A stretch of 35,577 nucleotides of DNA from Microcaldota archaeon (GTDB taxonomy: Archaea > Micrarchaeota > Micrarchaeia > Burarchaeales > Fermentimicrarchaeaceae). A program made the translations under genes and the position numbers. The DNA is taken from positions 1-35,577 of the forward strand of contig JACCLG010000027.1 in NCBI GenBank assembly GCA_013425335.1, read 5' to 3'. Below are positions 1,537 through 16,287 of this stretch, piece after piece (within the stretch, counting starts at the first letter, position 1; each line of letters starts with the position of its first letter). The notes below the pieces were generated by a model. The model was not told where the DNA came from. It did not search any database and worked only from the letters and a program-made list of their open reading frames with translations.

Positions 1537-3918
1537 CTATCTCCCGAGCATCTCGCTGAAATTGCCCGGATGCAGAAGCTGTATTACACCTATTCCTATC
1601 TCGGATTTGATTATGACCGCCAGCGGGCTGTAGGAAAGGTCCAGCTTCTTAACAGTCTCCTCCAGCTCCTTCTTGCTTTCAAAAATGATGAAATTCTTTC
1701 CAACACTGGTAAGCTCAAGCGCCCTTTTCAATGCATTCTCATCAGTGTAGATATGCACGTAAAGCCCCTCTCCCTTAACCGTTGCGAGCATGTCGCAGTC
1801 CTTCCTCTGGTTCAGGTCAGTGAAGGGTATTGCATTGTTTATGAGGAAGTTTCTAAGAAGCCTGAACAGGACGAGATATCTAATATTTCTGCCGCTTTTG
1901 GCCTCCCATGTTTTGAGGCCGTAGAAGTTCAGCGCCTTTACGACATCCCCGCTCTCTATGAGCTCATCCAGTATCTTGTCAAGGTTGTAGTCAGTTATAA
2001 GGATTGGCACGCCCTTGTAGGTTATCTTCCTCCTCATCTCGTTCTTCATCTCCTGCGGACTGAGGGGCATGAAACTCCATTTGTACTCCTTGTTCACGGA
2101 GTCGAGCAGGCTGAGGACTGAGAATTTCGAGACGGGGACTACGACTTTTTCAAGAGGCGGGAAATCCGGAACGTCAATGATGTACACAGGCTTCTCCGGC
2201 CTTCTAAGAGCGATTGCAACTACGGCAACTATGGCTATTGCCACGATCAGAACAATGTTGAGTGGATTATCGAGCCAAGAGGCAGGTTTGGGGAAGTTAC
2301 TATTAACAGTTAGTATCTGCCCGCTTATGTTAACTTTAAAAGTGTATAAACCATAGTCAAGGGGCTGGCTCAGTATGAAGGCGAATCCCCCGTCAATATT
2401 GGATGTATTGGAGTACGGCGGGAGCACGTCCTTGCCAGGAGTTTTGTTCACCGTTATGTATGCTACCTTGTAGGGCAGCGGCACAATGTCGCTTGGATTT
2501 GACAGGATGGGGTTCCTTGGCACATATACGAAGAAGTAGAAAACCTGCGGGTCGAGATCCCATCTAGGATTTGGCATTGTGAGGTTTATCGGCGGAACAC
2601 TCAGGAACGACTGTGCGTATACATAACCATTATCATCCTCTGCCCTGAGCGTGTAGTTGCCAATGGGCATATCAATGAGGAAGTTGCTCGTGAAGGTGTA
2701 TTCTGTTTGGATTTTGATGCTGTGCGCATACTGCCTCTCAACAAACTGCATATTTTTGTATACCGCCACGCTTATGTTGGCATCCCTTGGAGCAGAGAAG
2801 TTTTCTGAGAGCCGGAAGTCTATGAGCATCTTCTCGTCTCCAAAAGCCTGGGGTTTGTGTATTATCTTACCCCGGACTGGGTTGCTTATTTCCCTATCAA
2901 TGTTTATGTAAAGCTGAGTGCTGTTGGAGGTGGTTGCATTGACGAATATCCTGGCCCATCCCGAATCGTATGGGGACGGGGCAAGGAATATCATCGAACT
3001 GCTGGAGTTGGATTCATTGATTTTTTTGGCGGATATGTCTAGGCTGCCCGTGGTTAATGGGCCTTTCCACAGCACTTCGTGAATCAGGCGCCCTACATCC
3101 TCTCCGGCGGCTTTCCCGTCACTCCACCCTATGTCGATGCTCCTCGGCAGGACGAAGAAATACCCGCCCCGCCTGTGCACATACGACATGGAGCACGCCA
3201 CCATATTGCGCGAAATGACGAAGCTGGGGTTTTGCAGCCTGTAGCCCTGGCAAGTCTCTAGGCCGGACTTGACCTGGTAGCTGATGTTATATGCTGAAAG
3301 CCTGCTCTGCGGTATATGCACCACCGAACCATTAAGGTAGAACGCCTCGTCAAAATCACGCCCCAGGAATATGACAACAAACCCCTTGTCCATAAGCTGG
3401 TTGAGGTCTTGACCACTTTCGAGGCCGATGAGCTGTGCCGGTATCTTTCCTGTCGGAATTATGATTATTGAGCGGCGGCTAATCCTTTCGAGCTGGCCGA
3501 TTTTTATCTGGTTGAGCGTGGAATTAACTTCGAGCAGATCATATTTTTTGAGCGTTGCCTCCAGCGATGTCCTGAAGTCTGGCAGGCCATCGCATTCTGT
3601 GCAACCCGAGAAGCCTGGGCTTGAGTAGTCCAAAAGGTAGATGTCACGTGGTATCTCGCTGTCATAGAGGCTGACGCTCACATTTGCATCTGTGATGTTT
3701 TTTCCGTCTGCCCGCGTGAGCAGGTATACAACTTTGCTTGGAACTCCGGGGCTTCCGTAATCGAGAACCCCAGAATCCAAAACATTGAATTCTATGCTGG
3801 GGTTAATGCCAGCCGGAGGCTGGATGCCCCCGGATGCTAGGTAGAAAATAATAAATACGCCGACGAACCCTAGGATTAGGAGAATCGCGATGAGTATAAT
3901 TAAATTTCTCCTCCTCAT
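1537..3918 (-). CDS. Large two-TM protein with extracellular domains and cytoplasmic tail (unknown family)
   Basis: 793 residues. An N-terminal membrane anchor (RRRNLIILIAILLILGFVG) is followed by about 520 extracytoplasmic residues with many N-x-S/T sites and several Cys. A second membrane helix (about 550-570, PLNIVLIVAIAIVAVVAIAL) leads to a basic stop-transfer and a cytoplasmic domain of about 220 residues. The outer part contains beta-rich segments resembling Ig/CARDB-like domains; I recognise no catalytic motif. The start overlaps the stop of the preceding gene as ATGA, so the two are translationally coupled. It is the last gene of the secretion-like array, which suggests an envelope-spanning or surface-exposed component. 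That role is inference. Confidence 0.85.
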   Translation of the reverse strand: MRRRNLIILIAILLILGFVGVFIIFYLASGGIQPPAGINPSIEFNVLDSGVLDYGSPGVPSKVVYLLTRADGKNITDANVSVSLYDSEIPRDIYLLDYSSPGFSGCTECDGLPDFRTSLEATLKKYDLLEVNSTLNQIKIGQLERISRRSIIIIPTGKIPAQLIGLESGQDLNQLMDKGFVVIFLGRDFDEAFYLNGSVVHIPQSRLSAYNISYQVKSGLETCQGYRLQNPSFVISRNMVACSMSYVHRRGGYFFVLPRSIDIGWSDGKAAGEDVGRLIHEVLWKGPLTTGSLDISAKKINESNSSSSMIFLAPSPYDSGWARIFVNATTSNSTQLYINIDREISNPVRGKIIHKPQAFGDEKMLIDFRLSENFSAPRDANISVAVYKNMQFVERQYAHSIKIQTEYTFTSNFLIDMPIGNYTLRAEDDNGYVYAQSFLSVPPINLTMPNPRWDLDPQVFYFFVYVPRNPILSNPSDIVPLPYKVAYITVNKTPGKDVLPPYSNTSNIDGGFAFILSQPLDYGLYTFKVNISGQILTVNSNFPKPASWLDNPLNIVLIVAIAIVAVVAIALRRPEKPVYIIDVPDFPPLEKVVVPVSKFSVLSLLDSVNKEYKWSFMPLSPQEMKNEMRRKITYKGVPILITDYNLDKILDELIESGDVVKALNFYGLKTWEAKSGRNIRYLVLFRLLRNFLINNAIPFTDLNQRKDCDMLATVKGEGLYVHIYTDENALKRALELTSVGKNFIIFESKKELEETVKKLDLSYSPLAVIIKSEIGIGVIQLLHPGNFSEMLGR

Positions 3919-4112
3919 CTTTGACCCTCTTTGATCCAGCCAAGCTTCTTGAAAATCGTGGTGGCTCTCTCAGCAAGCGGATTTTCCTCCTCCTTGTACT
4001 TCTTTTTTATTGCGAAATGCTTCGTGTTCTGGAATCTCTTTTTCACGCGGAGCAGGTAGGTCTCCTTCTTCAGCTGGGATTCTAGTATTTCGTTATTTGG
4101 GGATTGCTCCAT
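3915..4112 (-). CDS. Small basic protein (65 aa) of the secretion-like array
   Basis: I chose the ATG at 4112 because GGGTGAGCC lies immediately upstream and the preceding gene stops only four bases before it. A longer reading to 4205 would run inside that gene. The 65-residue product has no signal peptide or membrane helix and is rich in Lys, Arg and Glu (KKETYLLRVKKRFQNTK; KHFAIKKKYKEEENPLAER). It is probably helical and cytoplasmic. Its stop overlaps the next start by four bases. I do not recognise the family. Tight coupling on both sides argues that it is real and works with its neighbours. Confidence 0.7.
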   Translation of the reverse strand: MEQSPNNEILESQLKKETYLLRVKKRFQNTKHFAIKKKYKEEENPLAERATTIFKKLGWIKEGQR

Positions 4113-4116
4113 AGGC

Positions 4117-4905
4117 TCACCCGATGTATTCGAGATGCCCCTGCGTGACCATTGCGTTGAGCAGGTGCTCCACTCTGGATTCCAGGACGTTGTATACCTT
4201 GGCAAACTCCGTTATGTTTATCTCGTTATTATGCAGCTCAAGCCACTCCTGTATTTTAACTTTGAGGGTGTCATCGGAGGGAGATTCAAGCTCTTTCAGC
4301 CTCAGCTCCAGCTCGTCATTCCTTGCCTTCAGCTCTACTGTTTCCTTTGTGATTTTGGCAAGAGAAGCATTAAGGCTCTCAATCTTCCTCTGCAGGGAGA
4401 GGGCTTCCCCGTTCAGAACATCGTATTTTGCGTATATCTCATCGTAGGTGGATGTGGCGAATTCTGTTATCTCAGTGAGGGAATTCCTTATTATCTGGTA
4501 GAGCTGCTTGTGGTCTATTTCGTATGTCTGCCCTATAAGGGTCAGGATATTCAGGAAGTGTTTGAGAACTTCTATGTTCCTCTTTTTTTTGTTTATGCCC
4601 GGAACGATTGTGTACACAATCTCTATCTCGCTGGGCCTGAAGTATACAGTTGAGAACAGATACGGGTTCTTCCGTATATCTCTGCTCTCAACATTCAATG
4701 CGGCTACATAATCGCCTTCAACAGCAAGCTGGACTGAGCTGAGCAGGGAGAGAGCGCTTGTTATCTCGCTCAAGTCCCTTACTCTCCTGGCTGGGAGCCT
4801 GAAGCCCGCTACCTGGGGCGTAGGAACCTCATCCTTAGGTTCCTTTTTCTCAGCAAGTTTCGGCTCCTTCTTATCAACTGGTGCTTCTTCCTTTTTTTCT
4901 GCCAT
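4117..4905 (-). CDS. Coiled-coil protein with C-terminal winged-helix-like domain
   Basis: 262 residues from the ATG at 4905; a longer reading to 5010 would overlap the preceding gene more deeply. The first about 40 residues are a charged, probably disordered Lys/Glu/Pro segment. A globular alpha/beta region (about 45-150) follows. Then comes a long coiled coil (about 165-205, heptads around LQRKIESLNASLAKITKETV and LKARNDELELRLKELE). The last about 55 residues (NEINITEFAKVYNV, then a recognition-like helix and QGHLEYIG) look like a winged helix. There is no signal peptide or membrane segment. It could be a cytoplasmic scaffold for the ATPase or a DNA-binding regulator. It overlaps the previous gene by 32 bases. 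Confidence 0.8.
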   Translation of the reverse strand: MAEKKEEAPVDKKEPKLAEKKEPKDEVPTPQVAGFRLPARRVRDLSEITSALSLLSSVQLAVEGDYVAALNVESRDIRKNPYLFSTVYFRPSEIEIVYTIVPGINKKKRNIEVLKHFLNILTLIGQTYEIDHKQLYQIIRNSLTEITEFATSTYDEIYAKYDVLNGEALSLQRKIESLNASLAKITKETVELKARNDELELRLKELESPSDDTLKVKIQEWLELHNNEINITEFAKVYNVLESRVEHLLNAMVTQGHLEYIG

Positions 4906-5239
4906 GTTCCTCAACTCTTGGGAAATACGATATGAGCGAGAATAGGATGAAGAGAACTGCCGCCACCAGACCGAAGAATATGGACTGCAGAGTCTGGGAT
5001 ATGAGAACAAGCATCACGAAGAACAGGGTTGCCAGGACGGTCCATGTCATCAGCGATCTCTCAAACCTGCGCCTCTTCTCCTTTGCTTTGGGAAGGCATT
5101 CATCACAAACAACAAGGGTGTTGTTCCTGGCAATGTTCAGCCTGTTCTTTATATTTCTGATTGTCTCTAGGTATAAATCATCTTCAATCATGCTTCCCTT
5201 CTTCTCTTTCCTGCAAACTATGCAGACGGATTTTTTCAC
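4874..5239 (-). CDS. Zinc-finger protein with two membrane helices (121 aa)
   Basis: The start is GTG at 5239, supported by AAGGATGAT just upstream; the nearby ATGs are in other frames. The N-terminus has two CxxC pairs (CIVC near residues 6-9 and CDEC near 45-48), typical of a treble-clef or zinc-ribbon fold. Two hydrophobic helices (about 65-83 and 88-107) and a basic tail follow. The zinc module should face the cytoplasm. It lies five bases after the 99-residue gene and overlaps the coiled-coil gene. The family is unknown to me; a membrane anchor for cytoplasmic partners of the machine is a reasonable guess. Confidence 0.75.
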   Translation of the reverse strand: MKKSVCIVCRKEKKGSMIEDDLYLETIRNIKNRLNIARNNTLVVCDECLPKAKEKRRRFERSLMTWTVLATLFFVMLVLISQTLQSIFFGLVAAVLFILFSLISYFPRVEEHGRKKGRSTS

Positions 5240-5243
5240 AGCA

Positions 5244-5543
5244 TCATCCTTTTAGGATAACTTCCTGAACCTTTTTATCATCAACACCTGCCTTCTTGAA
5301 GTCCGCCCTCGAAAACACGCTCATGAGGGTGGTTTGCTCTATCCCGATGTCTTTGAGAAAGTTGGAAACCTGCGCCCTGGTTACGCCAAACTTCTCCAGG
5401 TTGAGCACAAACGCTATTACATCCATGTGCCTGTTCTTCTTGTCAAAGAGCGTCATTATCTCCTCCATAGGCGCATCGCTAAGGCCGAACAGCTTGAGCT
5501 TCTTCCTCAGCTCACTTTTGTCAAAGGAGTAGGATTTTGCCAT
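5244..5543 (-). CDS. Stand-alone paralogue of the ATPase C-terminal domain (99 aa)
   Basis: The all-helical 99-residue product aligns over about 76 residues without gaps to the C-terminal end of the ATPase encoded just upstream. Both start Y-x-F-(D/E)-K-x-E-L and share a central M-D-x-x-x-F-V and a later R-A-x-x-x-x-F-L-K-x-x-G. By eye 27 of 76 positions are identical. GGGTGATGGGAA precedes the ATG at 5543, and the ATPase stop lies six bases upstream of it. It has no membrane segment. It probably binds the ATPase or the same partner that the ATPase tail binds. This is a duplication within the operon. Confidence 0.85.
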   Translation of the reverse strand: MAKSYSFDKSELRKKLKLFGLSDAPMEEIMTLFDKKNRHMDVIAFVLNLEKFGVTRAQVSNFLKDIGIEQTTLMSVFSRADFKKAGVDDKKVQEVILKG

Positions 5544-5549
5544 TTCCCA

Positions 5550-7076
5550 TCACCCGGCTCCTATTCTATTTAGTATATCTATTATCATGGAATCCTCCAT
5601 GCCCACTCCCTTCAGGAATGAGGTTATATTCGCTCTTGCGAGGTCGTTGTTCTCAAGGAACTCCACGAAGCTGACTATATCCATGCGCTTATTGTTCCTG
5701 TTGAATACATTTATCAGCTCGGATGCACGGATGTCATCCATGCCAAACTCCGTGAGCTTGTTCTTGAGCTCGTTCTTCTCAAAGGCATAATTCTGGGGAA
5801 TGGTGTCATCAGCAAGCTGTGCCTGCGTGAGAATGGACTGGACATCAAGGAAATACTCCTCAAGGGGCTCCTCTCCATGAATCTTCTCCAGCAGGAAAGT
5901 TTCGGGGAATTTCGTGCTCGTCTGGAATGCCATGTTCACAGCGCACTGGCCGACACCGAACTTGCTTATCTCCGCCCTCATATAATCGCTGAAGTTCAGC
6001 GAGCCCTGGATGTAGTCCAGGAAGTTCTGGAATTTCACCCTCAATATGAATGTTGTTCCTACATTGGAGAATATCGCCTCATGTATGTCCGTGGGGTTCT
6101 GGGAAGCCACTATGAGGCCGAAGTTATATTTCCTTCCCTCCCTCACAATCATTATCGCATCGGACCTCTCATCCTTGGCTATCTTCCATGCCTCGTCAAG
6201 CACCACGAACACCCTCAAGCCCTTCGTTGCGGACCATCCTGTGGACCTCATCTTCTCCTTGAGGAACTGCAGCACAAAGAGGCCCGCAAGCCCCCTCATA
6301 ACCTCGTCAGGAAGCCCGCTCAAATCAACGTCGACCAGCCCGACTTCAGTCAGCTCCTCAAGCTTTACCGTGCTCTGCTGGGAGAAATAGTCCTCGCCTG
6401 GCCTGCAGAAGTTCTTCAAGCGGTATATTGTATTCTCCAGCTCTGCCGGGAACTCGTAATTCCCTCCCTTAAGCCTGTCCTCAAGTATGTTCACAACGTC
6501 CTTCAGAGTTGGTGTGGGCAGCGGCTTTCCGTCAGAGCCCTTATGCTCCACTTCGCTGAGCTTGAAGCCGGCTTCAGTGTAAGTTTCCTCAAGAGCCTGC
6601 TCAGTCAGCCTCTTCTGCTCGGGGTACTGGCTTATATCCGTGAGTATCTCCAGCGTCCTTATAATCTGCTTCACCCTGTCGAGAGGCTTCATGCCTCCCA
6701 GATCCATGAGATTTATGAAATCCCCCCTGCCGAGTGAGATTATCCTTCCTCCTGTCTGCTTGACCCATGCCCTGTACTCCCCAGCCCAGTCTATTATTAT
6801 GGCGTTGCTTCCCCACACAAACGCAGCCCTGGACAGGAATGCCTTGACGAAATATGACTTTCCCGCGCCAGTAATCCCGACTATGCATATGTGCGGGTTT
6901 GTCAAGTACTCATAGGACCAGTTGAAAGGAACATGAAATATTTTCGTTTTCCCAACGTATATGGAATTCGAAGGGTCAAGGGCTAGATACTCCGCCGGCG
7001 GCTCGGGAGGTCTTACAAAGAGTGGCCTCTTGGCCAGCTCATTGCTCATTATGGATTGTATTCTTAACGCTCCCAT
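5550..7076 (-). CDS. VirB4/HerA-type secretion ATPase
   Basis: 508 residues. Walker A GITGAGKS lies at 67-74. An acidic strand IIIDWAGEY at 93-101 is typical of HerA/VirB4 ATPases. Walker B RVFVVLDEAW is at 288-297, and REGRKYNFGLIVASQNP at 322-338 matches the family's sensor region. A separate helical domain occupies about 428-505 and is duplicated in the next gene. Family members are hexameric motors that energise DNA or protein transfer and pilus assembly. The protein begins almost directly with the ATPase fold, without the long N-terminal domain of bacterial VirB4. AGGTG lies before the ATG at 7076. It sits between the paired membrane proteins and the accessory genes. HerA-like DNA translocation is an alternative reading; the operon context favours VirB4. 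Confidence 0.92.
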   Translation of the reverse strand: MGALRIQSIMSNELAKRPLFVRPPEPPAEYLALDPSNSIYVGKTKIFHVPFNWSYEYLTNPHICIVGITGAGKSYFVKAFLSRAAFVWGSNAIIIDWAGEYRAWVKQTGGRIISLGRGDFINLMDLGGMKPLDRVKQIIRTLEILTDISQYPEQKRLTEQALEETYTEAGFKLSEVEHKGSDGKPLPTPTLKDVVNILEDRLKGGNYEFPAELENTIYRLKNFCRPGEDYFSQQSTVKLEELTEVGLVDVDLSGLPDEVMRGLAGLFVLQFLKEKMRSTGWSATKGLRVFVVLDEAWKIAKDERSDAIMIVREGRKYNFGLIVASQNPTDIHEAIFSNVGTTFILRVKFQNFLDYIQGSLNFSDYMRAEISKFGVGQCAVNMAFQTSTKFPETFLLEKIHGEEPLEEYFLDVQSILTQAQLADDTIPQNYAFEKNELKNKLTEFGMDDIRASELINVFNRNNKRMDIVSFVEFLENNDLARANITSFLKGVGMEDSMIIDILNRIGAG

Positions 7077-7086
7077 GAATACACCT

Positions 7087-7911
7087 TTATATTGAGCCTT
7101 TTAAATCTTTAAGTGCTGGGGGGAATGCCACTTCCCAGTCGAAACACTTTTTCATGTCCTCCCCCTTCAGGTCGGATATTTCCACATTGAGCGCATTGGA
7201 GAACGTGGCTTTCAGCTCATTTGCCTGCCCTTTCACCGCGGCTATCGCTGCCGCAGGGCTGACACCAACTGCCATTGTCATAATATACATCAGAGTACCA
7301 AGCGGCTTCTCTCCTGATGAGAGCCTCGCGAGAAGCTCATTCTGCTTGGCAACTTCCCTCTCCCATTTGTCTAGGGTTATGGCATCCGGACGCGGCTTCT
7401 CCCTCTCCCTTCCGAGCCTCAGCTGGGCTGCCGCCCTGTTTGTCTCAGTATCCTCCCTGAACTTAATTATATCCTCCGGGTAGGAGATCAGGCAGAACTT
7501 AAATGGATAGTCTATGCTTGCAACAGCCCTCTCCCACAGGTCCATGTAGGATGTCTGCTCCTCCTGCACTCCCGCAGCCGCGGACTCGTAAAGTTTTGCA
7601 TACTGGAACTGCGCCGAATAGTAAACACCGCCAACACGTTTTAGTATGACATCCTGCGACGGTGGGATTTCAAAACCTCCGGTTCTTATCTCTCTGACTT
7701 TTAGAATCCCTGTTATGAAGGGGAGAATAAAAAATCCCACCTGGTAGACAACTGCGTTGAATATCAGGCACAGGATGCAGACAGCCAATACGACAATTTT
7801 AAAGCTGCCTAGCCCTGTTGATGTGAAGCTGAGCATCAGGGATATGAATGATATGCCCAGCGCAGCAGCTGTGACTGTCTTCTCGTTTATTCCAAATGAT
7901 ATGTATGGCAT
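7087..7911 (-). CDS. Two-TM plus soluble domain protein, VirB3/VirB4-N-like candidate (copy B)
   Basis: 274 residues. Two membrane helices (about 13-33 and 38-68) precede a soluble domain of about 190 residues. It is clearly paralogous to the adjacent gene. Shared blocks are MDLWERA, AQLRL-x2-ER-x-KP, a central KxEREx stretch, YIMT, QANE-x-K-x-T and DMK-x-CF-x-WE-x2-x-PP. The ATG directly abuts the preceding TAA, with GGGAG upstream. The two-helix N-terminus recalls VirB3/PrgI. The soluble part could supply the N-terminal domain missing from the ATPase. That match rests on position and size, not on an alignment. Confidence 0.8.
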   Translation of the reverse strand: MPYISFGINEKTVTAAALGISFISLMLSFTSTGLGSFKIVVLAVCILCLIFNAVVYQVGFFILPFITGILKVREIRTGGFEIPPSQDVILKRVGGVYYSAQFQYAKLYESAAAGVQEEQTSYMDLWERAVASIDYPFKFCLISYPEDIIKFREDTETNRAAAQLRLGREREKPRPDAITLDKWEREVAKQNELLARLSSGEKPLGTLMYIMTMAVGVSPAAAIAAVKGQANELKATFSNALNVEISDLKGEDMKKCFDWEVAFPPALKDLKGSI

Positions 7912-8721
7912 TTAAACTCCCGCTTGCGAACTTGACTCCTCCCTTATCTGCGGAGGCAGCATGTATTCCCATTCAAAACATCTCTTCATATCATCTCCTG
8001 TAAGCACTGCAACGTCTGCATTGAGCGTGGTCGATATTGTTGATTTTATCTCATTGGCCTGGTTTTTCGCAGCAGCCAAAGCCATTTCAGGGGTTGGACC
8101 CTGCCCGCAGGTCATTATGTATGTTATCTGCATTATGGCGTTGTTGCCCGTAGCAATCTTTGAAAGCATGTTGTCCCACATCGATATCTCCCTCTCAAGC
8201 TTACTCAGAGTTGCTTCATTCGGCTCGGGTTTGCCCCGTTCATTTGCAAGTCTTAGCTGTGCGTCGGCTTTCTTGTTCTCAATTATGCTCCTGTATTTCG
8301 TCAAATCCTTTGCATAGGAGGATATGCAGAACTTCGTGACAAACTTCAGACCGGAAATTGCTCTCTCCCATAAATCCATGAATGCGGCCTTCTGGTCCTC
8401 GCTTTTCTCAGTTGTGGATTCGTATACCTTCACATGGATGAACATTGAGGCATAGTACGCATTGCCAATTTTCTTGATGACTGCATCCTGGGATGTGGAG
8501 AACTCGTAGGGTTCTTCTATGACGTCTATTACCCTCACCCTCCTGGTGAGGAATGGCAGCATCCAGTAGCCATACTTGAAAAGAAGCAGGCCTGCCACTG
8601 AGAAGAGAGGGGCCAATATAAGGAGGAAAGAAGCTATGGACCACAGCCCGCTTATGATGAATGTCATGGCTACCAGAATCGTGCCTATGCCGATACAGGC
8701 AAGAGCTATGTTCCTTTCCAT
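7912..8721 (-). CDS. Two-TM plus soluble domain protein, VirB3/VirB4-N-like candidate (copy A)
   Basis: 269 residues from the ATG at 8721. An in-frame GTG at 8736 would add five residues, but the binding site TAGGTGAT covers that GTG and sits ten bases before the ATG. Two membrane helices (about 5-25 and 28-55) are followed by a soluble domain paralogous to copy B. The blocks MDLWERA, TYIMT and DMKRCFEWE are well conserved. The gene lies 15 bases after the last VirB6-like gene and ends directly against copy B. Retention of both copies suggests a heteromeric pair at the inner face of the membrane. Confidence 0.8.
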   Translation of the reverse strand: MERNIALACIGIGTILVAMTFIISGLWSIASFLLILAPLFSVAGLLLFKYGYWMLPFLTRRVRVIDVIEEPYEFSTSQDAVIKKIGNAYYASMFIHVKVYESTTEKSEDQKAAFMDLWERAISGLKFVTKFCISSYAKDLTKYRSIIENKKADAQLRLANERGKPEPNEATLSKLEREISMWDNMLSKIATGNNAIMQITYIMTCGQGPTPEMALAAAKNQANEIKSTISTTLNADVAVLTGDDMKRCFEWEYMLPPQIREESSSQAGV

Positions 8722-8736
8722 GGTCAAAAAAATCAC

Positions 8737-9747
8737 CTACAATATCTGTATTATTCCCTGCCCTATATCTGTTATGTCCGCACCCAGCAACGGTGCTATT
8801 GTCCTTATGAACGTGAAGGTTACTATTAATACCAGCATTGGGTAATAAAATATTTTCAGCCATATTCCTGAGAGCCATCCGAGAATCCATGCTGATGCAT
8901 TCCTGAGCTGGGGGGATAGGACCCTCTGGGTTGCAACATCAGTCGCAGTCTGGAAATCGCTGGCGCATGCACCGTAATCACTCAGGTTGAAGTTGCCTAT
9001 GCTGTTACCGAGTTGATTCGCCTGGTTCTTGACCTCTGACGGGTTCTCCGACATCAGCGAGACATAGGTGAACATTACCGGGTATACTATTGAAAGCCCG
9101 ATTCCAATTGCAATGAGCAGACCTCCTGCACCTCTTGTCCACGGGAATATCCTGAGCAGGACTCCGGCAGGTATGAAGAGTGAAAACCCTACGTTGTAGA
9201 AGAGGTGCAGTAGTGCCCTCTGCGCGGCAGTGGTTATTGCCGCCATTGTGACCACATGCGCCTGGAAATGCAGCTGCTCAACAACAGGGCTGAGGACGAG
9301 CTCGAAGGGAGAAAAATCAAGACCTGCTGCATTGAAGTAGAACGAGAATGTTGTGAGGAACTCAAGCGGGAAGTTTACGGTGTAGACATTTGTGTACACT
9401 GCATAGAGCGATTCCATAACCCCGTCAAGGTATGCATACGCTCTCTTGTATGGATTCATTCCTCCAATCATCGTCTGGAAACCCTGGTTGACCATGACGT
9501 CCATCATGAACAGCAGGAACACGACAAGGACTGCGCTGGCGCATGCCTGGTAGAACTCCGCCTTTGCCCATTTCCTCAAGCCATCAAGGTTGAAGAATAC
9601 GCCAAGCATGTATGACAGCGAGACAATGAGGAAGGCCGTGGTAACCGCTATCAGGGCCACGGGCTGCCATACGTTCCACGCTCCCGCCACATCGACAGGT
9701 GCTCCCGTATTCCAGGGCTCTGTCCACCACACTATTGGCGTTGCCAT
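8737..9747 (-). CDS. VirB6/TrbL-like polytopic membrane protein, paralogue 6 of 6
   Basis: 336 residues with about six or seven membrane helices and no signal peptide. It carries all the elements shared by the six tandem paralogues. Motif A is WAKAEFYQ at 60-67. Motif B at 193-223 has the pattern P-A-G-V-x-L-R-x-F-P-x-T-R-x-x-G-G and then Y-P. The C-terminus has F-I-R-T-x-A-P-L-L-G-A-D. An outer loop between about 100 and 165 and a second one (about 228-290) distinguish it. The start is two bases after the previous stop. The VirB6/TrbL assignment rests on topology and on linkage to a VirB4-type ATPase and VirB2-like pilins. Confidence 0.82.
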   Translation of the reverse strand: MATPIVWWTEPWNTGAPVDVAGAWNVWQPVALIAVTTAFLIVSLSYMLGVFFNLDGLRKWAKAEFYQACASAVLVVFLLFMMDVMVNQGFQTMIGGMNPYKRAYAYLDGVMESLYAVYTNVYTVNFPLEFLTTFSFYFNAAGLDFSPFELVLSPVVEQLHFQAHVVTMAAITTAAQRALLHLFYNVGFSLFIPAGVLLRIFPWTRGAGGLLIAIGIGLSIVYPVMFTYVSLMSENPSEVKNQANQLGNSIGNFNLSDYGACASDFQTATDVATQRVLSPQLRNASAWILGWLSGIWLKIFYYPMLVLIVTFTFIRTIAPLLGADITDIGQGIIQIL

Positions 9748-9748
9748 A

Positions 9749-10810
9749 TTATATCAGCCTCGTGAGGTTGCTCACGTCAACCTCCTCCCCAAGGGCCATT
9801 GAAAGCCCTTTGATGAATGCTATGAGAATCATGAACATTATTAAGGGTATGAATATTGCTCCCATTATAACGGTTCCTATGAATGACGCAATGAAACCAA
9901 GTATGTCCGGGTTGAACCAGCTTGTGTTGGCTGGCGAGGTTCCTGCAGTTTGGAATGAGGTGCTGAAATCGGAATAGTTGTGCTGGATGTTGTCAACCAG
10001 CGCCCCGTAGAAAAGTACTGCAATGAGTGGATAGAATACAAAGAACCCGATTCCTATGGCCATGAGACCCCCTCCAAAGCCCCTGGTAGCGCCAAAGCAC
10101 CTGAGGACAACTCCGATGGGGAAGAGGATTACGAACAGGCTCGCAGTCATTTTCAGAAGCACCATCTGGGTGAGGGTGAAAATTGCGCCTGTTAAAAGCG
10201 CAATGGATGCTAGCAGGAGCCCATCTGCAACCTGGGCCAGCCCTGCCAACGGAGCGATAATAATCCCGACTCCGCCTGGGGCAAAGCCCAAGGTCATTGA
10301 TGCCGCTGCGGTTAGAATGGAATTCATTGCAATCACAAGCAAGTAGCCCTGCATGATTGTCGTGTACATTGTTGAGAGGTAGCCGAATGCGACGTCAGAC
10401 ATATTGCAGCTTGATTCACCGGCCCCTCCACAGCTTGACACCAGGCCGAGCGATTTCATGTCCAAGTCGCAGAGAGAGGATATGAGGACTAGCACAACTA
10501 TGACCATGACAATGGCGATTATCGCCTCTGCCATTTGGTTCTTTGCCCACATTATTGCTTTTTGGTGGTCCAGGGCGTAACCCAGGGTATAGATGAGTAT
10601 GCTCACTATAAATACGGTTGACGCTGCAAGAAGGGATACTCCCTGCCAGCTCGCCCAGATGCTGTTGACAAAAGCAGGGTTTACCGTTGTCCCGCTGCAC
10701 GCGGGAACCACTGACAATTCCGTTCCAGATGATGTAGTTGTATAGGTGCAGCCGGCCAAGGCTATGGCTACGAGCAGGAGGCAGGCTGTGATTTTTTTGG
10801 ACGCTTTCAT
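9749..10810 (-). CDS. VirB6/TrbL-like polytopic membrane protein with lipobox-like N-terminus, paralogue 5 of 6
   Basis: 353 residues. It is the only paralogue with a lipoprotein-type signal: KKITACLLLVAIALAGC, giving a candidate lipobox L-A-G-C with Cys at 21. Motif A is WAKNQMAE at 88-95. Motif B at 231-261 has P-I-G-V-x-L-R-C-F and T-R-G-F-G-G then Y-P. The C-terminus ends L-G-E-E-V-D-V-S-N-L-T-R-L-I. Several extra Cys (about 38, 114, 127, 135) fall in the outer segments. ATGA overlap with the preceding gene indicates coupled translation. It is presumably a channel subunit with a lipid-anchored or cleaved outer N-terminus. Confidence 0.82.
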   Translation of the reverse strand: MKASKKITACLLLVAIALAGCTYTTTSSGTELSVVPACSGTTVNPAFVNSIWASWQGVSLLAASTVFIVSILIYTLGYALDHQKAIMWAKNQMAEAIIAIVMVIVVLVLISSLCDLDMKSLGLVSSCGGAGESSCNMSDVAFGYLSTMYTTIMQGYLLVIAMNSILTAAASMTLGFAPGGVGIIIAPLAGLAQVADGLLLASIALLTGAIFTLTQMVLLKMTASLFVILFPIGVVLRCFGATRGFGGGLMAIGIGFFVFYPLIAVLFYGALVDNIQHNYSDFSTSFQTAGTSPANTSWFNPDILGFIASFIGTVIMGAIFIPLIMFMILIAFIKGLSMALGEEVDVSNLTRLI

Positions 10811-11745
10811 ATCAACCCCTGCAGCCCTCCCACATCTATTTCAGAGCCAAGTATTTTCGCAAGTTCGTTTACCAGCACAAGCACTGTCAGCAGATTGAAC
10901 AGAGAAAGCATGAAGACAAACACAACCAGATGCAGCACCACGACGTATTCCAGATAGTTAATCAAAGCGAGTATGATATTGAGCCCGATGTCCGGAGTGT
11001 TCGTGAAGCAGGTTATTGGGTTCGAAGCGCAACTGATTCCCCCTCCGATGGCGCTGCCCAGGAATGGGGTGGAGCCCATGGTGCTGACTTGCAGGATGGT
11101 CTCATCATAGAGTGCACTGTTAAAAACCCACATGAATGGGTAGAAGATGTAGAAGCCGAGGAATATGGCAATGAGCGCCCCGCCGGCAGACCTGCTCCAT
11201 GGAAACGACCTCAGCGCTATTCCTATTGGAAGCACGATTATGAGCTTGTCATGGATAAACGAAAGGAATGCGCTCTGGCCGAGCATTATTGCCATTCCTC
11301 CAAGAATTCCCTCCATGGTTAGGGAGAGCATTGAAGTCAGCGTTGTCAATCCCGCGAATGGTGATATGCTGAAGCCCATCTGGCTGGGCATGGCGTTGAA
11401 AGCCATCGTCTGGAGAAGCGCAAAGGAGGCATCCACGGCAACAACTGCAATGAAGAATGATGAAAGGTTTGCAATCATTTTATTTATGTAGTCAGTTGCG
11501 ACGGTGAACGGCTCCTTCCCGTAGATGTTCTTCATCGTTAGGTCTATTGTCACTGCAAAAGTCAAAATCAAGACTGCTATCAGCGCGCTTGCCAATGCCT
11601 GGAACAGCTCCTCCTTCGCCCATGCCTGGAGCTTGGGGAGGTGGAAGCCTATGCCAAGCATGTATGCAATTGAAATCAGGGCCAGGGCTAGGGATATCAC
11701 CGCGAATGTTATCCCATACCATGCTCCCCAATCTATAATTATCAT
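10807..11745 (-). CDS. VirB6/TrbL-like polytopic membrane protein, paralogue 4 of 6
   Basis: 312 residues, the shortest and closest to a minimal form, with about seven membrane helices. Motif A is WAKEELFQ at 42-49. Motif B at 172-203 has L-P-I-G-I-x-L-R-S-F-P-W-S-R-S-A-G-G then F-Y-P. The C-terminus is L-G-S-E-I-D-V-G-G-L. A shared element, E-P-F followed by A-x-x-Y-I-N-K-M, lies at about 78-90. TAGGTGCAGCA precedes the ATG, with the upstream stop inside this site. The next start overlaps its stop. Confidence 0.82.
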   Translation of the reverse strand: MIIIDWGAWYGITFAVISLALALISIAYMLGIGFHLPKLQAWAKEELFQALASALIAVLILTFAVTIDLTMKNIYGKEPFTVATDYINKMIANLSSFFIAVVAVDASFALLQTMAFNAMPSQMGFSISPFAGLTTLTSMLSLTMEGILGGMAIMLGQSAFLSFIHDKLIIVLPIGIALRSFPWSRSAGGALIAIFLGFYIFYPFMWVFNSALYDETILQVSTMGSTPFLGSAIGGGISCASNPITCFTNTPDIGLNIILALINYLEYVVVLHLVVFVFMLSLFNLLTVLVLVNELAKILGSEIDVGGLQGLI

Positions 11746-11753
11746 TGCTGCAC

Positions 11754-12938
11754 CTACAGGATTCTGGTCAAGCCAGCTATCTCAACATCTCCTCCCAGCA
11801 TTGGCGAGAGGGTTCTTATGAATGAAATTGTCACGAGCAGTATTATGAGCGGGATGAACACCGCCGGCACCATGAGGTAGCCGATAGTTGGAAGAACTCC
11901 GTCGTACTGGCTTCTCATACCGGCATACACATCTGGCGCAGGACTGCAGAATCCAGGAGTGCTTGGGCACGAGGAGCCGGGGCATACATTTGGGTCAGCG
12001 GCTACGCAACCATTCTTGAACATGAAGTCGGCAGCCCCAAAGTTGCCAACAGCAGTGGGAAGGCCGGGTATTATGTAGGACATCATTCCGAGAAAGCTGA
12101 TGCAGTATGGGGCATTGGAATCAGCCCCGCCCGGCATAAACCCGCCCCCAGCGCAGGAGATGGGCGCATACCAGTGGGTTGGGTCGTTGCTTGGGTAGTA
12201 GAGCTTGCGCACGTTGAAGTCCATGTAGCTGCCGAGCATTATGTACATTAGAGGATAGATTGTGTACAGGCCGAGCGCAATTGCAATGAGCAGACCGCCA
12301 ACCTTCCTTGTGAAGAAGAACGTCCTTAATATTATTCCAAGCGCAAGGAGGCTCGGGAAGAGAGTTGCCTGGATGAATCTCAGCATCCAAAGCTGAGCGA
12401 AAAAGCTCGAAACCAGCGGCAGCAGTATTGAGAACGCATAATCGAGGGAGTCGGATATTACGCTGCCCCCAGCCCACATGTCCCATCGGAAGCCAAACGC
12501 CGTGGGGCAGTAGCCGAGCAGGCATGTCTCGGACCCGGGCCCAATGCTGAAGTCGTAGTATTTGCCCATGCTCTTTATGAGGCCTACCCGCATTGCTAGG
12601 CCGAATATTTCCTGAGTCTGTTCTACCGACTTATTTTTCATGTTGTCCATTATATTTATTGCCACGCTAATGTGATCGCCACCTGGCGGGCACCCATCAG
12701 TGAGGGAACAGGAGAAGTTAACTATTGCAGTCACTACTACCACAGCTACTGCTATGATGAAGGCGCTTGCCAATGCCTGGTATACCTCTTCCTTGGACCA
12801 GACCTCAATTTCCTTCAGCCTGAACAGGTGAGCCAGAAGATACGCCAGGGATGCAAATAGTATGGAGAGCACTGCTGCGCCTACGGCAACTACCTGCCAG
12901 ATCGTCCAAATATTCTGGAATGCTACTGGTACTCCCAT
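11754..12938 (-). CDS. VirB6/TrbL-like polytopic membrane protein with Cys-rich outer loop, paralogue 3 of 6
   Basis: 394 residues, the longest of the six. Motif A is WSKEEVYQ at 47-54. Motif B at 199-230 has A-L-G-I-I-L-R-T-F-F-F-T-R-K-V-G-G then I-Y-P. The C-terminus is F-I-R-T-L-S-P-M-L-G-G-D. A long loop at about 245-345 holds six Cys (262, 279, 311, 319, 324, 331) and is rich in Pro and Gly, so it is probably extracytoplasmic and disulfide-bonded. Another pair of Cys sits near 77-83. GGAGAAGGATAAT leads directly into the ATG. The loop could contact pilus, substrate or partner cell. Confidence 0.82.
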   Translation of the reverse strand: MGVPVAFQNIWTIWQVVAVGAAVLSILFASLAYLLAHLFRLKEIEVWSKEEVYQALASAFIIAVAVVVVTAIVNFSCSLTDGCPPGGDHISVAINIMDNMKNKSVEQTQEIFGLAMRVGLIKSMGKYYDFSIGPGSETCLLGYCPTAFGFRWDMWAGGSVISDSLDYAFSILLPLVSSFFAQLWMLRFIQATLFPSLLALGIILRTFFFTRKVGGLLIAIALGLYTIYPLMYIMLGSYMDFNVRKLYYPSNDPTHWYAPISCAGGGFMPGGADSNAPYCISFLGMMSYIIPGLPTAVGNFGAADFMFKNGCVAADPNVCPGSSCPSTPGFCSPAPDVYAGMRSQYDGVLPTIGYLMVPAVFIPLIILLVTISFIRTLSPMLGGDVEIAGLTRIL

Positions 12939-12939
12939 A

Positions 12940-13917
12940 TTATCCTTCTCCGAAGTTCTGGCTTAAAACCCTTGATGCATTTTTCACGAACGTGAGGGTT
13001 ATCACAAGGTTCAGGGTTGGGAGGAAAATCGCCTGCGGGAGCAGTTTCGCAACCTCCTGCAAAAGCAGGACAATATCTATCAGCGCCCAGGGTAGGAACG
13101 GAGATATAATGGCCAGTGCGAATCCTTCCACAACCGGCAGCCCGGCAGAACTTGATATGAAAGAAGCGCTCATCACTGGGTCTTTCATCACTGCATTGAC
13201 TACCATCTGGTTCATAACGAAGCAGAGCGGGTATACAATATACAGCCCAAGTGCCAAGGCTATGAACGTTGCCCCAGCCCTTCTCAGAAACGGGAACACC
13301 CTGAAGAGTATGCCAAGTGGAAGCATTATCCTGAAAGCGAATGCCTGTATTATGGACAGGCCTATATCCTGGACCATGAGGCTTGCTGACAGCCCTACAA
13401 AGAGCGTGTAGAGGAAATCAAAGTTGGTTGCAACTGTCCTGAGGCCTATGCTCTGCTGATAGGTTGTCCCAAGGGATTTGGAACCCACGTGGGTCTTGTA
13501 GGCGGCAGCCAGCTGGCAGATGAGGCTGTCTTGGAATGCCCGTGTCGCAAGGTTGATCGTCTTATCCCAGACCAGGCCATTAAGATAGGTGTGGGCTATA
13601 ACGAAGGGGTCAGCTCCGGCAACATTGGTGAAGATGCTACATACTGCACTGATTACAACTACTAGCAGGACTACTATTGCTACGGAGATTATTGCCTGGT
13701 AGAACTCGTCCTTTATCCAAACAGCCCACTCCGGTTTAGAAAATATTTTGGACAACATATATATCAGGGAGAAGGACAGGAAAATGAGCGACAGCCCAAT
13801 GAAAACCAGATTTATCCAGCCGCCTGACTCCCACTCGCCGCTTATGCAGCATGGCTGAGGTGGATTCATGCATGCGGTTGCAGCGGAAACATTCGCAATA
13901 GCAATAGAAATGAGCAA
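12940..13917 (-). CDS. VirB6/TrbL-like polytopic membrane protein with signal peptide, paralogue 2 of 6
   Basis: 325 residues if TTG at 13917 is used. Motif A is WIKDEFYQ at 67-74. Motif B at 198-230 has L-P-L-G-I-x-F-R-V-F-P-F-L-R-R-A-G then Y-P. The C-terminus lacks the L-G-x-D ending of the others and stops at SQNFGEG. The start is uncertain. TAGGTGAT lies nine bases before an in-frame CTG at 13938, and reading from there adds a basic n-region (KTFVRA) that completes a normal signal peptide. A non-canonical CTG start is therefore possible. A Cys-containing stretch (MNPPQPCCISG) follows the cleavage region. Confidence 0.8.
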   Translation of the reverse strand: MLISIAIANVSAATACMNPPQPCCISGEWESGGWINLVFIGLSLIFLSFSLIYMLSKIFSKPEWAVWIKDEFYQAIISVAIVVLLVVVISAVCSIFTNVAGADPFVIAHTYLNGLVWDKTINLATRAFQDSLICQLAAAYKTHVGSKSLGTTYQQSIGLRTVATNFDFLYTLFVGLSASLMVQDIGLSIIQAFAFRIMLPLGILFRVFPFLRRAGATFIALALGLYIVYPLCFVMNQMVVNAVMKDPVMSASFISSSAGLPVVEGFALAIISPFLPWALIDIVLLLQEVAKLLPQAIFLPTLNLVITLTFVKNASRVLSQNFGEG

Positions 13918-13952
13918 CGCCCTTACGAATGTTTTCAGACTCGTCTAATCAC

Positions 13953-14909
13953 CTATACCAATCTGGCCAACCCGAATAAATCCGGGTCGCCCCCCAGCGC
14001 ACCTGCAAGCGAACGTATTGAAGACAAGGTTATTACTACTGTCACTAGGAAACATGCAGTTATTATAACGAAGTTCCTCATCATGCTGCCCAATGCGTTT
14101 ATAGGGCCGGCTATATCCCAAACGATCGGCCCGAAATACAGATTCTCCATCGGGTTGCCGGGCTGCCCAGCTACAGTTACTGACTTAAAGCTGTTGTATA
14201 GTCCGTAGGAGTATATTATTGCGAGAGGGTAGATTATGTAGGCGCCCACTGCAACTGCAATGATGGTGCTGCCGGCAACTCTTGTGAGCGAAAAACTCCT
14301 CATGAGGACTCCGAGGGGCAGGAAATACTTGAACATTACCACCCTGAAGAAATCCAGGAGAACCTGCTGGACAAGTAGTACAGCAAACATTGCAGAGAGG
14401 AGGTTGAACAGTGTGTCTATCCCAATTGTCATGGCGCTGAATCCAGCTTCGGGAGTTACCATGGAACCAATGCGTATTGTCAGCACCTCGGGTATAATTA
14501 TGGGTATGAAGAAGCCTATCGTCAGTGTTGAAAGCGCAGCTATGTACAGGTTATACAGGAACAAGTTGAGGTATATGCCGGCGGTGTCATACAGCATTTG
14601 ACCCAGACTGCTGTGCGCTACTTCCAGCGGATCGCCGCCAGCCAGGTTGGTTGATATGCCGAATAGGACTCCTACGAAGGCAACCAAGGAACCAACTATA
14701 ACCCCGCTTATGAATATCTCGTACATCTCCCTCTTGGCCCACTCCTCAAGCTCCTTGTAGTTGAACCCAATCCCAATTGCAAAAGCAATTGCAATTATGC
14801 CGAATGAGACCAAAAGGGCGGTTAGGGCAGCTGACACCCACCCCCCCAGAAATGTGCCACCGCTTAAGTCTACCTGCAGAATTGTCAAAACCACCAACTC
14901 TATATACAA
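13953..14909 (-). CDS. VirB6/TrbL-like polytopic membrane protein, paralogue 1 of 6
   Basis: 318 residues, first gene of the 14-gene array. Motif A is WAKREMYE at 57-64. Motif B at 197-229 has L-P-L-G-V-L-M-R-S-F and T-R-V-A-G then I-Y-P. The C-terminus is L-G-G-D-P-D-L-F-G-L-A-R-L-V. The shared D-P-L-x-V-A-H element is at about 93-99. The start is uncertain: TTG at 14909 has no clear binding site, while GGTGGT a few codons inside would serve a rarer start. The true product may lack about ten residues. It is followed by 14 to 35 bases and then paralogue 2, depending on the start used there. Confidence 0.8.
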   Translation of the reverse strand: MYIELVVLTILQVDLSGGTFLGGWVSAALTALLVSFGIIAIAFAIGIGFNYKELEEWAKREMYEIFISGVIVGSLVAFVGVLFGISTNLAGGDPLEVAHSSLGQMLYDTAGIYLNLFLYNLYIAALSTLTIGFFIPIIIPEVLTIRIGSMVTPEAGFSAMTIGIDTLFNLLSAMFAVLLVQQVLLDFFRVVMFKYFLPLGVLMRSFSLTRVAGSTIIAVAVGAYIIYPLAIIYSYGLYNSFKSVTVAGQPGNPMENLYFGPIVWDIAGPINALGSMMRNFVIITACFLVTVVITLSSIRSLAGALGGDPDLFGLARLV

Positions 14910-14995
14910 TATCTGGTAATTTGGGTTTGGTTGTTTTTAAAACTAACTGAAGATAAGATAAAATATTGTTTACGCTTTAGGCAGAAGAAGTATGG

Positions 14996-15009
14996 AAAAA
15001 GAAAAAAAA
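14996..15009 (-). terminator. T-tract terminator after the third pilin gene
   Basis: On the minus strand eight T, then C and five T, begin about ten bases after the pilin stop at 15020. Oligo-T tracts are the usual archaeal intrinsic terminators. This separates the pilin unit from the VirB6-like array. Confidence 0.6.
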
Positions 15010-15019
15010 TGAATGTTTT

Positions 15020-15376
15020 CTATGGGCAACTGAATGTGAATGTACCAGGCGACATCTGTGTGAATATCTTAACCAGTATGGGTGCCAGCACTGCAAGGAA
15101 TATGCCAATTATCCCTCCAACCAGGAGAGACATTGCCCAGCCCTGCGCCTTTGCCCTCATTTCAGAACCGAAGACTTGACCTGATGCATATGCCAACCCT
15201 GCAAACAGGAACATTATAAGGGAAAGACTTGGCAGAACGGTGTAGACAAGCGTCTGGAATTGGCAGAGAGCTAGTGCTATATTCGTAGCCATTGTTCCTA
15301 CACCTACAGCGGCGAAGACTGGAGTCTGCAACGAAAGGAGAATCAATACAAGAGCCATTTTTGCATTATTTCTCAT
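15020..15376 (-). CDS. VirB2-like pilin, divergent copy (pilin 3)
   Basis: 118 residues from the ATG at 15376. AGGTGGTGAT lies just upstream; a GTG at 15388 falls in that site and was rejected. The layout is signal peptide (cleavage near F-A-A, residue 22), then TM1 (about 42-67), a short polar loop (E-M-R-A-K-A-Q-G-W) and TM2 (about 82-106). This is the topology of VirB2/TrbC conjugative pilins. The loop K-A-Q-G-W-A and the L-L-V-G-G-I-I-G start of TM2 match the other two copies. One Cys precedes TM1 (38) and one is next to the C-terminus (117), both on the outer side. Confidence 0.85.
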   Translation of the reverse strand: MRNNAKMALVLILLSLQTPVFAAVGVGTMATNIALALCQFQTLVYTVLPSLSLIMFLFAGLAYASGQVFGSEMRAKAQGWAMSLLVGGIIGIFLAVLAPILVKIFTQMSPGTFTFSCP

Positions 15377-15457
15377 TTTAATCACCACCTAGTATATGGA
15401 ATACGGAGAATAAAAAGATTTCGGTATGACCTCATGCTATTACCCGGATATTTAAAT

Positions 15458-15479
15458 AAAATATAAAAAAAGAAAAAAA
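15458..15479 (-). terminator. T-tract between pilin 2 and pilin 3
   Basis: Minus-strand runs of seven T, a C, seven T and then ATATTTT begin nine bases after the stop at 15489. This is likely a terminator. The A/T-rich end plus the following TTTAAATA could also act as a TATA element for the next pilin gene. Confidence 0.55.
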
Positions 15480-15488
15480 TGGATGTCT

Positions 15489-15836
15489 CTAAGGACAAGC
15501 GTTTGCGAATCCTGCACCGGCTCCTGCTGCGTTTACGAATATGTTTACCAGTATGGGTGCCAACACTGCAAGGATTATACCAATTATCCCTCCAACCAGG
15601 AGAGCCATTGCCCAGCCCTGCGCCTTTGCCTTGGTCTCAGCACCGAAGAATTGGCCTGCTGCGTATGCCAACCCTGCGAACAGGAACAGCACCAGCGAAA
15701 GAGCTGGCAGTACTCCAAGAACCAGTACCTTGAAGGTGCACAAAGCCGCGGATACATTTATAGCCGTCTGAGTTGTAGTCACGGCAGATGCTAGTCCCAC
15801 AGCTAACAACAGGGACAAAATTGCCTTATATTTCAT
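15489..15836 (-). CDS. VirB2-like pilin (pilin 2)
   Basis: 115 residues. Signal peptide 1-18 ends A-S-A. TM1 is at 36-60, the polar loop A-E-T-K-A-K-A-Q-G-W at 66-75, and TM2 at 76-101, with a small Gly/Ala-rich tail. Cys 33 and Cys 114 lie outside the membrane on the same side. TAGGTGG precedes the ATG. It is a near copy of pilin 1: about 20 base differences plus one inserted Gly codon and one missing Pro codon by eye. Such short two-helix proteins form the filament of conjugative pili and of the Ced/Ted pili in Thermoproteota. Filament assembly here is inferred from topology and context. Confidence 0.87.
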   Translation of the reverse strand: MKYKAILSLLLAVGLASAVTTTQTAINVSAALCTFKVLVLGVLPALSLVLFLFAGLAYAAGQFFGAETKAKAQGWAMALLVGGIIGIILAVLAPILVNIFVNAAGAGAGFANACP

Positions 15837-15869
15837 TTTAAACCACCTATTACATGGAATACGTAGAAT

Positions 15870-15911
15870 AAAATATAAAAAAAGAAAAATAAAATATAAA
15901 AAAAGAAAAAA
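15870..15911 (-). terminator. Duplicated 21-base T-tract between pilin 1 and pilin 2
   Basis: Bases 15870-15890 and 15891-15911 are two copies of a 21-base unit (20 of 21 identical) made of A-runs on the plus strand. Read on the minus strand, each is a T-tract followed by TATATTTTA. They follow the pilin 1 stop by nine bases. They probably terminate transcription, and the inner copy may supply the TATA box for pilin 2. Confidence 0.6.
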
Positions 15912-15920
15912 TGGATGTTT

Positions 15921-16268
15921 CTAGCAGGCGTTTGCGAATCCTGCGCCGGCTCCTGCTGCGTTTACGAATATGTTCACCAGCACTGGTGCCAGCACTGCAA
16001 GGACTATACCAATTATCCCTCCAACCAGGAGAGACATTGCCCAGCCCTGCGCCTTTGCCTTGGTCTCAGCACCAAATGCCTGGCCTGCTGCATACGCCAA
16101 CCCTGCGAACAGGAAGAGTATCAGCGAAAGAGCTGGCAGTACTCCAAGAACCAGTACCTTGAAGGTGCACAAAGCCGCGGATACATTTATGGCCGTCTGA
16201 GTTGTAGTCACTCCGGCAGATGCTAGTCCCACAGCTAACAACAGGGACAAAATTGCCTTATATTTCAT
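15921..16268 (-). CDS. VirB2-like pilin (pilin 1)
   Basis: 115 residues from the ATG at 16268. AGGTGGTTTAAA lies right before it, which argues against an in-frame ATG 15 bases further upstream. The signal peptide ends A-S-A-G, with the same two-helix topology as pilin 2 and Cys at 34 and 115. It is the promoter-proximal member of the three-gene pilin set and lies behind the palindrome-containing promoter. High sequence identity with pilin 2 points to recent duplication or conversion. Confidence 0.87.
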   Translation of the reverse strand: MKYKAILSLLLAVGLASAGVTTTQTAINVSAALCTFKVLVLGVLPALSLILFLFAGLAYAAGQAFGAETKAKAQGWAMSLLVGGIIGIVLAVLAPVLVNIFVNAAGAGAGFANAC

Positions 16269-16287
16269 TTTAAACCACCTCATTTTT

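Follow-up and report, generated by a model that had tools for sequence, protein, structure and literature searches.

A run of collinear genes on the minus strand of a micrarchaeal contig (positions 1537-16283) is read here, with some reservation, as a chromosomal, domesticated type IV secretion system (T4SS) derivative of the Ced/Ted kind, which is general in Micrarchaeota, has a hetero-oligomeric channel and probably serves DNA exchange. The analysed window, 35,577 nucleotides long, is contig 10 of a 1.0 Mb genome (89% complete), to which, among named organisms, Ca. Fermentimicrarchaeum limneticum is closest, with ATPase identities of 86-93% in the closest loci. What we observe directly is the gene set, its order and its conservation, six orthologue groups of channel-type genes, a hairpin that is homologous between these proteins and the pilins, and the family of the ATPase (Table 1).

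In the direction of transcription, three pilin genes are followed by six genes for VirB6-like proteins (B6, p1-p6), by B3b, B3a and the ATPase gene, and then by a copy of the ATPase C-terminal domain, a zinc-ribbon/2-TM protein, a coiled-coil/winged-helix (wHTH) protein and a two-TM surface protein. The first-pass annotation had listed three pilins, six polytopic proteins, two VirB3-like candidates and one ATPase together on one strand, all of which were found. It had also described them as lying with almost no gaps, and from p2 to the coiled-coil gene neighbours overlap or are at most ~10 bp apart; the pilin genes are spaced by 80-110 bp. The reading frame of pilin C starts at 16283, with a possible inner start at 16268. 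The 6-TM gene upstream and the giant secreted ORF downstream may belong to the machine too; a secreted ORF of ~2000 aa or more is found at the place of the latter in L005, L006, L009 and L010, and L006 is part of a complete chromosome.

Table 1 Features of the machine locus and its two neighbours, in order of transcription
Feature	Position	Strand	Basis or remark
6-TM protein, conserved	16859..17596	-	upstream of pilins; between pilin and B6 array in Micrarchaeales loci
VirB2-like pilin C, signal peptide + 2 TM	15921..16283	-	PF18895 T4SS_pilin E 0.0023
VirB2-like pilin B	15489..15836	-	96% identical to pilin C
VirB2-like pilin A	15020..15388	-	PF18895 E 5e-4
VirB6-like polytopic protein p1	13953..14909	-	array position; tree
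VirB6-like polytopic protein p2	12940..13917	-	array position; tree
VirB6-like polytopic protein p3	11754..12938	-	array position; tree
VirB6-like polytopic protein p4	10807..11745	-	AlphaFold2 model, pLDDT 86.6
VirB6-like polytopic protein p5	9749..10810	-	array position; tree
VirB6-like polytopic protein p6	8737..9747	-	array position; tree
B3b, TM hairpin + VirB4-NTD-like domain, 274 aa	7912..8736	-	hhalign to VirB4 NTDs
B3a, TM hairpin + VirB4-NTD-like domain, 274 aa	7087..7911	-	AlphaFold2 pLDDT 89; Foldseek 8rtd_h
VirB4/HerA-superfamily ATPase domain protein, 508 aa	5550..7076	-	DUF87 6e-14, AAA_10, TraG P-loop; PDB HerA + VirB4 4ag5
Stand-alone copy of ATPase C-terminal helical domain, 99 aa	5244..5543	-	36% identical to the ATPase's own domain; locus comparison
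Zinc-ribbon (2xCxxC) protein with 2 TM	4874..5239	-	accessory, conserved across loci
Coiled-coil + C-terminal winged-helix-like protein	4117..4905	-	accessory, conserved across loci
Surface-exposed protein, two TM, ~220-aa cytosolic C-terminal domain	1537..3918	-	accessory, conserved across loci
Giant secreted repeat protein, 5' part	1..1483	-	downstream of machine genes

The pilins consist of a class I-like signal peptide followed by two further TM helices. The T4SS_pilin profile (PF18895) is matched by 11 of the 15 members of the family and TrbC/VirB2 (PF04956) by 4 of the 15, with a best E of 1e-4; these matches are below the curated cut-offs, but consistent over the family members, and the corresponding candidate on pNOB8, a conjugative plasmid of archaea, scores no better (E 6.8e-4). 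A search of the whole PDB gave TrwL, the VirB2 protein of R388, as the top profile match, which is not significant (E 0.23), and the direct hhalign comparison with TrwL gave P 9e-4. Judged by sequence, the micrarchaeal pilins are VirB2-like and qualify as VirB2-type pilins.

The ATPase carries the Walker A motif GITGAGKS and the Walker B motif FVVLDE, and its matches to DUF87, AAA_10 and TraG_P-loop are all above the cut-offs. In the PDB search it aligns both with HerA proteins and with VirB4 (4ag5, E 1e-8, residues 58-331), and the VirB4 and HerA branches are not resolved in the ATPase tree. From its motifs and profile matches the protein can be classed as a VirB4-type ATPase, although the VirB4 N-terminal domain is missing from the polypeptide. 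A DNA-repair HerA was considered and rejected, since a distinct HerA is encoded elsewhere in the genome, near a Rad50-like gene (G000:C49).

B3a and B3b, which share 35% identity, had been put forward as VirB3-like. The AlphaFold2 model of B3a has an N-terminal TM hairpin followed by an alpha/beta domain, and its top Foldseek match is chain h of the R388 T4SS entry 8rtd (prob 0.99, E 0.13, TM 0.39). This entry contains TrwK/VirB4, and from its length of 457 residues we infer that chain h is TrwK. Comparison of B3 with VirB4 N-terminal domains by hhalign gave P 4.9e-5 over ~150 columns, against a best P of 0.1 for 34 unrelated families used as a null, whereas Pfam and PDB-sequence searches revealed no relatives of B3. 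The hairpin sits in the right place for VirB3, but it has no sequence match to PrgI (P 0.025) or TrwM (P 0.083), and a plain VirB3 was replaced by a hairpin fused to a VirB4 N-terminal domain. That the B3 proteins carry this domain and the ATPase domain is encoded separately, i.e., a split VirB4, is supported but not proven.

The assignment of the six polytopic proteins to VirB6 is less direct. They have 5-8 predicted TM helices each, with pairwise identities of 26-32%, and the model of p4 shows six long helices. The hairpin at their N terminus and the pilin are homologues (hhalign P 1.2e-5), the same relation as that found in the pilin/channel pair of pNOB8 used as a positive control (P 1.3e-6). 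When the B6 HMM was run against 8,327 ORFs, all matches fell on B6 proteins, pilins or fragments within B6 arrays, and one ORF in such an array (L098:10355-12025) is matched by both the B6 and the pilin profiles. Conversely, no relatives of B6 were found in Pfam or PDB-sequence searches, and Foldseek of the B6 model gave nothing significant, so that B6 could be a membrane family unrelated to VirB6 and merely linked to the pilin and ATPase genes. We regard this as very unlikely, because the pilin-like hairpin repeats the relation between CedA and CedA1, because single-copy B6 genes occupy the VirB6 place in four-gene operons of the type VirB2-VirB6-VirB3/4-VirB4 (see below), and because the R388 VirB6 chains in the non-significant structure list have TM-scores above most matches, which is suggestive only. 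The B6 profile also failed to match Gram-positive VirB6, R388 TrwI and the pNOB8 CedA-like protein, in a comparison of low power: even between the Gram-positive and pNOB8 sets there is no match. The CedA-like plasmid profile contains three sequences only. The link to VirB6 is therefore indirect but specific, resting on place, topology and the pilin-like hairpin; the six "VirB6-like" proteins of the first reading keep that name on these grounds, without a significant profile or fold match to bacterial VirB6.

The gene set is widespread in Micrarchaeota, very small archaea of which most are uncultured; the survey covers essentially this phylum alone, as returned by a single scan of genome contigs. 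B6 is found in 221 of 245 genomes and the pilin family in 218, each of them in 89 of the 96 good genomes, and their absences coincide, with at least 16 shared (Fisher p 1e-12). B3 is missing in all 17 tested genomes without B6, and ~14 genomes have a single B6 match. These shared absences indicate that the module behaves as a unit. The block of B3, ATPase, zinc-ribbon, coiled-coil and surface-protein genes is repeated in ~70-80 of 84 loci, and the complete order of six B6, two B3 and ATPase genes was found again in two distant orders of Micrarchaeota, which argues against a chance grouping. The first-pass annotation is supported in its central claim, a machine resembling the T4SS core in an archaeon outside Thermoproteota: VirB2-type pilins, a VirB4/HerA-type ATPase, a VirB4-NTD-like partner and VirB6-like proteins with a pilin-type hairpin are kept together.

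Six B6 genes are present in the intact arrays of Fermentimicrarchaeum-type loci, of Micrarchaeales and of families f11, f12, f13 and f17, and each of five two-array genomes examined has two arrays of six. The exceptions are arrays at contig ends (L058, L066, L078), broken genes (L008, L083) and one locus with a position that was not recovered intact (L010). A tree of 127 sequences, taken from 21 arrays, groups them by position, with 12 label changes, compared with a minimum of 5 and a mean of 82 for shuffled labels. A careful tree of 72 sequences needs 7 changes (minimum 6) and places p2, p3, p5, p6 and the single-copy B6 in one clade each, with p1 and p4 split and some of the separating nodes weak. 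It follows that the six-gene set is older than the families and that each second array was copied as a complete set. Each of the six positions in the cassette of channel-type genes corresponds to its own orthologue group, and this composition is fixed across families, phylum-wide, rather than being a local oddity; a recent local expansion was rejected on the basis of the tree. In families f11-f13 and f17 the B6 arrays lie away from the ATPase block, and this distance was counted against the best explanation.

A minimal operon of pilin, one B6, B3 and ATPase genes is found in L105, L134 and L135, and L128 has B6, B3, ATPase and coiled-coil genes close to a pilin gene on the opposite strand. Two genomes, G002 and G011, hold both the single-copy and the six-gene forms. 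This four-gene plan corresponds to VirB2-VirB6-VirB3/4N-VirB4C and is close to those of Ced and Ted. It suggests that the six-gene form arose via tandem duplication of the channel gene, a direction which is inferred, as the tree is unrooted. We can only tentatively go further and propose that the six B6, none of which could stand in for another, make up a single, obligately hetero-hexameric (pseudo-sixfold) channel. Such a channel would have been fixed before the split of the Micrarchaeota families and would fit a hexameric split-VirB4 motor, with the ancestral homo-oligomeric, single-gene form persisting in some of the same genomes; the open-access searches turned up no account of a T4SS built in this way.

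In the working that we propose, a class I-like signal peptide would direct the export of the VirB2-like pilins, which would then assemble into a thin pilus or surface conduit. The six different B6 proteins, each with its pilin-like hairpin, would build a hetero-oligomeric membrane platform or channel beneath it, and the pilin would assemble on the B6 ring. B3a and B3b may hold the separate, presumably hexameric ATPase under the channel, so that VirB4 would be made up of two polypeptides, and ATP hydrolysis would power pilus assembly, substrate movement or both. The cargo would most likely be DNA, exchanged between cells or with a host. The formation of a channel, its hetero-oligomeric nature, the DNA substrate and the direction of transport are inferred and have not been shown.

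The genome was also searched for parts of known conjugation and competence systems. In the 89%-complete assembly we found no VirD4/T4CP coupling protein (PF02534), for which 5 of 14 control genomes were positive, and no relaxase of PF03432, the only relaxase family searched, so plasmid-type conjugation is unlikely. ComEC was likewise not found, which makes the machine a candidate route of DNA import, if the cell imports DNA at all; this is argued from absence in an incomplete genome. The same three absences count in favour of a T4SS derivative that delivers effector proteins or mediates contact with a host archaeon, rather than exchanging DNA. Micrarchaeota are thought to be largely host-associated, and a giant secreted protein and a large surface protein flank the locus. 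Such a role has been proposed for the T4SS of Patescibacteria, of which virB6 is reported as essential for epibiotic growth (PMC12102498). Nevertheless, there is no coupling protein for effector recruitment and no recognisable effector in the locus, and the archaeal systems of most similar plan, Ced/Ted, transport DNA (PMC9905601), which leaves protein delivery or host contact as a real but rather unlikely possibility. The several pilin copies per operon, their recent duplication (two are nearly identical; Table 1) and the giant secreted neighbours could also be explained by a machine for a pilus or adhesion only, in which a VirB4-type ATPase and a VirB6-like platform make a surface filament without transferring any substrate. 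We consider this quite unlikely, since a simple filament would hardly seem to need six conserved channel-type paralogues together with a conserved set of cytosolic accessory proteins, and other pilus-type ATPases (T2SSE) are already present elsewhere in the genome. DNA exchange through a domesticated T4SS remains the reading that we favour.

If this reading is true, domesticated conjugation machinery extends from Thermoproteota to a whole DPANN phylum, in which neither gene exchange nor host contact is understood. The natural series of one channel gene, one set of six and two sets of six lends itself to studying the step from a homo-oligomeric to a hetero-oligomeric secretion channel, and the constant number of six is a clear, testable structural prediction.

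Ced (Sulfolobales) and Ted (Thermoproteales) are archaeal DNA-import derivatives of T4SS (PMC9905601, PMC11868833), and the micrarchaeal machine shares with both a chromosomal location, a pilin, a polytopic VirB6-like protein, a VirB4/HerA-like ATPase and, as far as PF03432 shows, the lack of a relaxase. In both cases the channel protein begins with a hairpin that has homology to the pilin, as described for CedA and CedA1 (PMC9905601). The functions of VirB4 are divided over proteins as in Ced, where CedB and CedD share the VirB4 NTD (PMC11868833), here apparently between B3 and the ATPase, and the cleavable signal peptide of the pilin recalls TedC of Ted. In contrast, Ced and Ted have one channel protein (or two, CedA/CedE), whereas Micrarchaeota, in another phylum, have six ordered paralogues, with no detected sequence similarity between B6 and the CedA-like channel protein of pNOB8. 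The micrarchaeal VirB4-NTD-like domain is on the separate membrane proteins B3a and B3b, and zinc-ribbon, coiled-coil/wHTH and surface proteins are added.

The monoderm (MPF_FATA-like) conjugation systems on plasmids of Gram-positive bacteria, such as Geobacillus pGspE55-1 and Vallitalea pVpro, have the series PrgI (VirB3), a separate NTD-like protein and a DUF87 ATPase, the same division as proposed here for VirB4. In pGspE55-1 these genes are directly preceded by a pilin-like gene, and the ATPase of the Geobacillus plasmid ranks with the best plasmid matches to the micrarchaeal one (E 1e-14). These systems differ by their peptidoglycan hydrolases, with VirD4 and a relaxase when conjugative, and by a single VirB6-like protein, whereas in Micrarchaeota the hairpin and NTD are fused and six VirB6-like proteins are present. 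The Patescibacteria T4SS (PMC12102498) is also reduced, chromosomal and nearly phylum-wide in an ultrasmall, probably host-dependent lineage, but its VirB4 is bacterial and nested in MPF_FATA, and the accessible part of that paper mentions no six-membered VirB6 cassette. Several VirB6-like genes in one T4SS are also described for Rickettsiales (PMC2653234, PMC7648143), where, as far as the accessible parts of these sources go, the system is a diderm bacterial vir system with VirB6 paralogues of another number and make-up. The suggestion that the machine may be undescribed agrees with our searches of open-access full text, subscription papers and preprints being outside their scope, which turned up no account of this kind of machine for Micrarchaeota. 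The kind of machine, a Ced/Ted-like domesticated T4SS, is already known; what we regard as new is its presence in this phylum, the channel cassette with its fixed six members and the proposed split between B3 and the ATPase.

Pilins B and C share 96% sequence identity and reflect a recent tandem duplication; the identity between pilins A and B is 58%. A pilin profile and a B6 (VirB6-like) profile both match a 556-aa ORF of the B6 array in another genome (G088), which is possibly a pilin-B6 intermediate or fusion.

The surface protein, whose cytosolic C-terminal domain of about 220 residues is unidentified, is kept together with the VirB4/HerA-superfamily ATPase in about 70 of the 84 loci. The C-terminal helical domain of this ATPase is duplicated in an adjoining separate gene (36% identity), which is an ORF of its own in some loci only. 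Immediately downstream of the block, Fermentimicrarchaeum-type loci (L005, L006, L009, L010) carry a giant secreted ORF, of which the first part alone lies inside the window; this part has near-identical internal repeats.

Coordinates of the features discussed
Feature	Sequence	Position
Giant secreted ORF, first part	window	1-1483
Surface protein	window	3918-1537
ATPase C-terminal-domain copy	window	5244-5543
Pilins B and C	window	15489-16283
Pilin/B6 double match	L098 (G088)	10355-12025
Additional pilin-like gene	G000:C11 (L139)	19.6-20.0 kb
Further DUF87 ATPase	G000:C6 (L137)	2395-3855

Outside the window, the same genome (G000) has an additional pilin-like gene (E 2.6e-6), separated by about 3 kb from a gene for a T2SSE ATPase. 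A further DUF87 ATPase of this genome, located at a contig end and adjoining small membrane proteins, clusters in the tree with Gram-positive VirB4.
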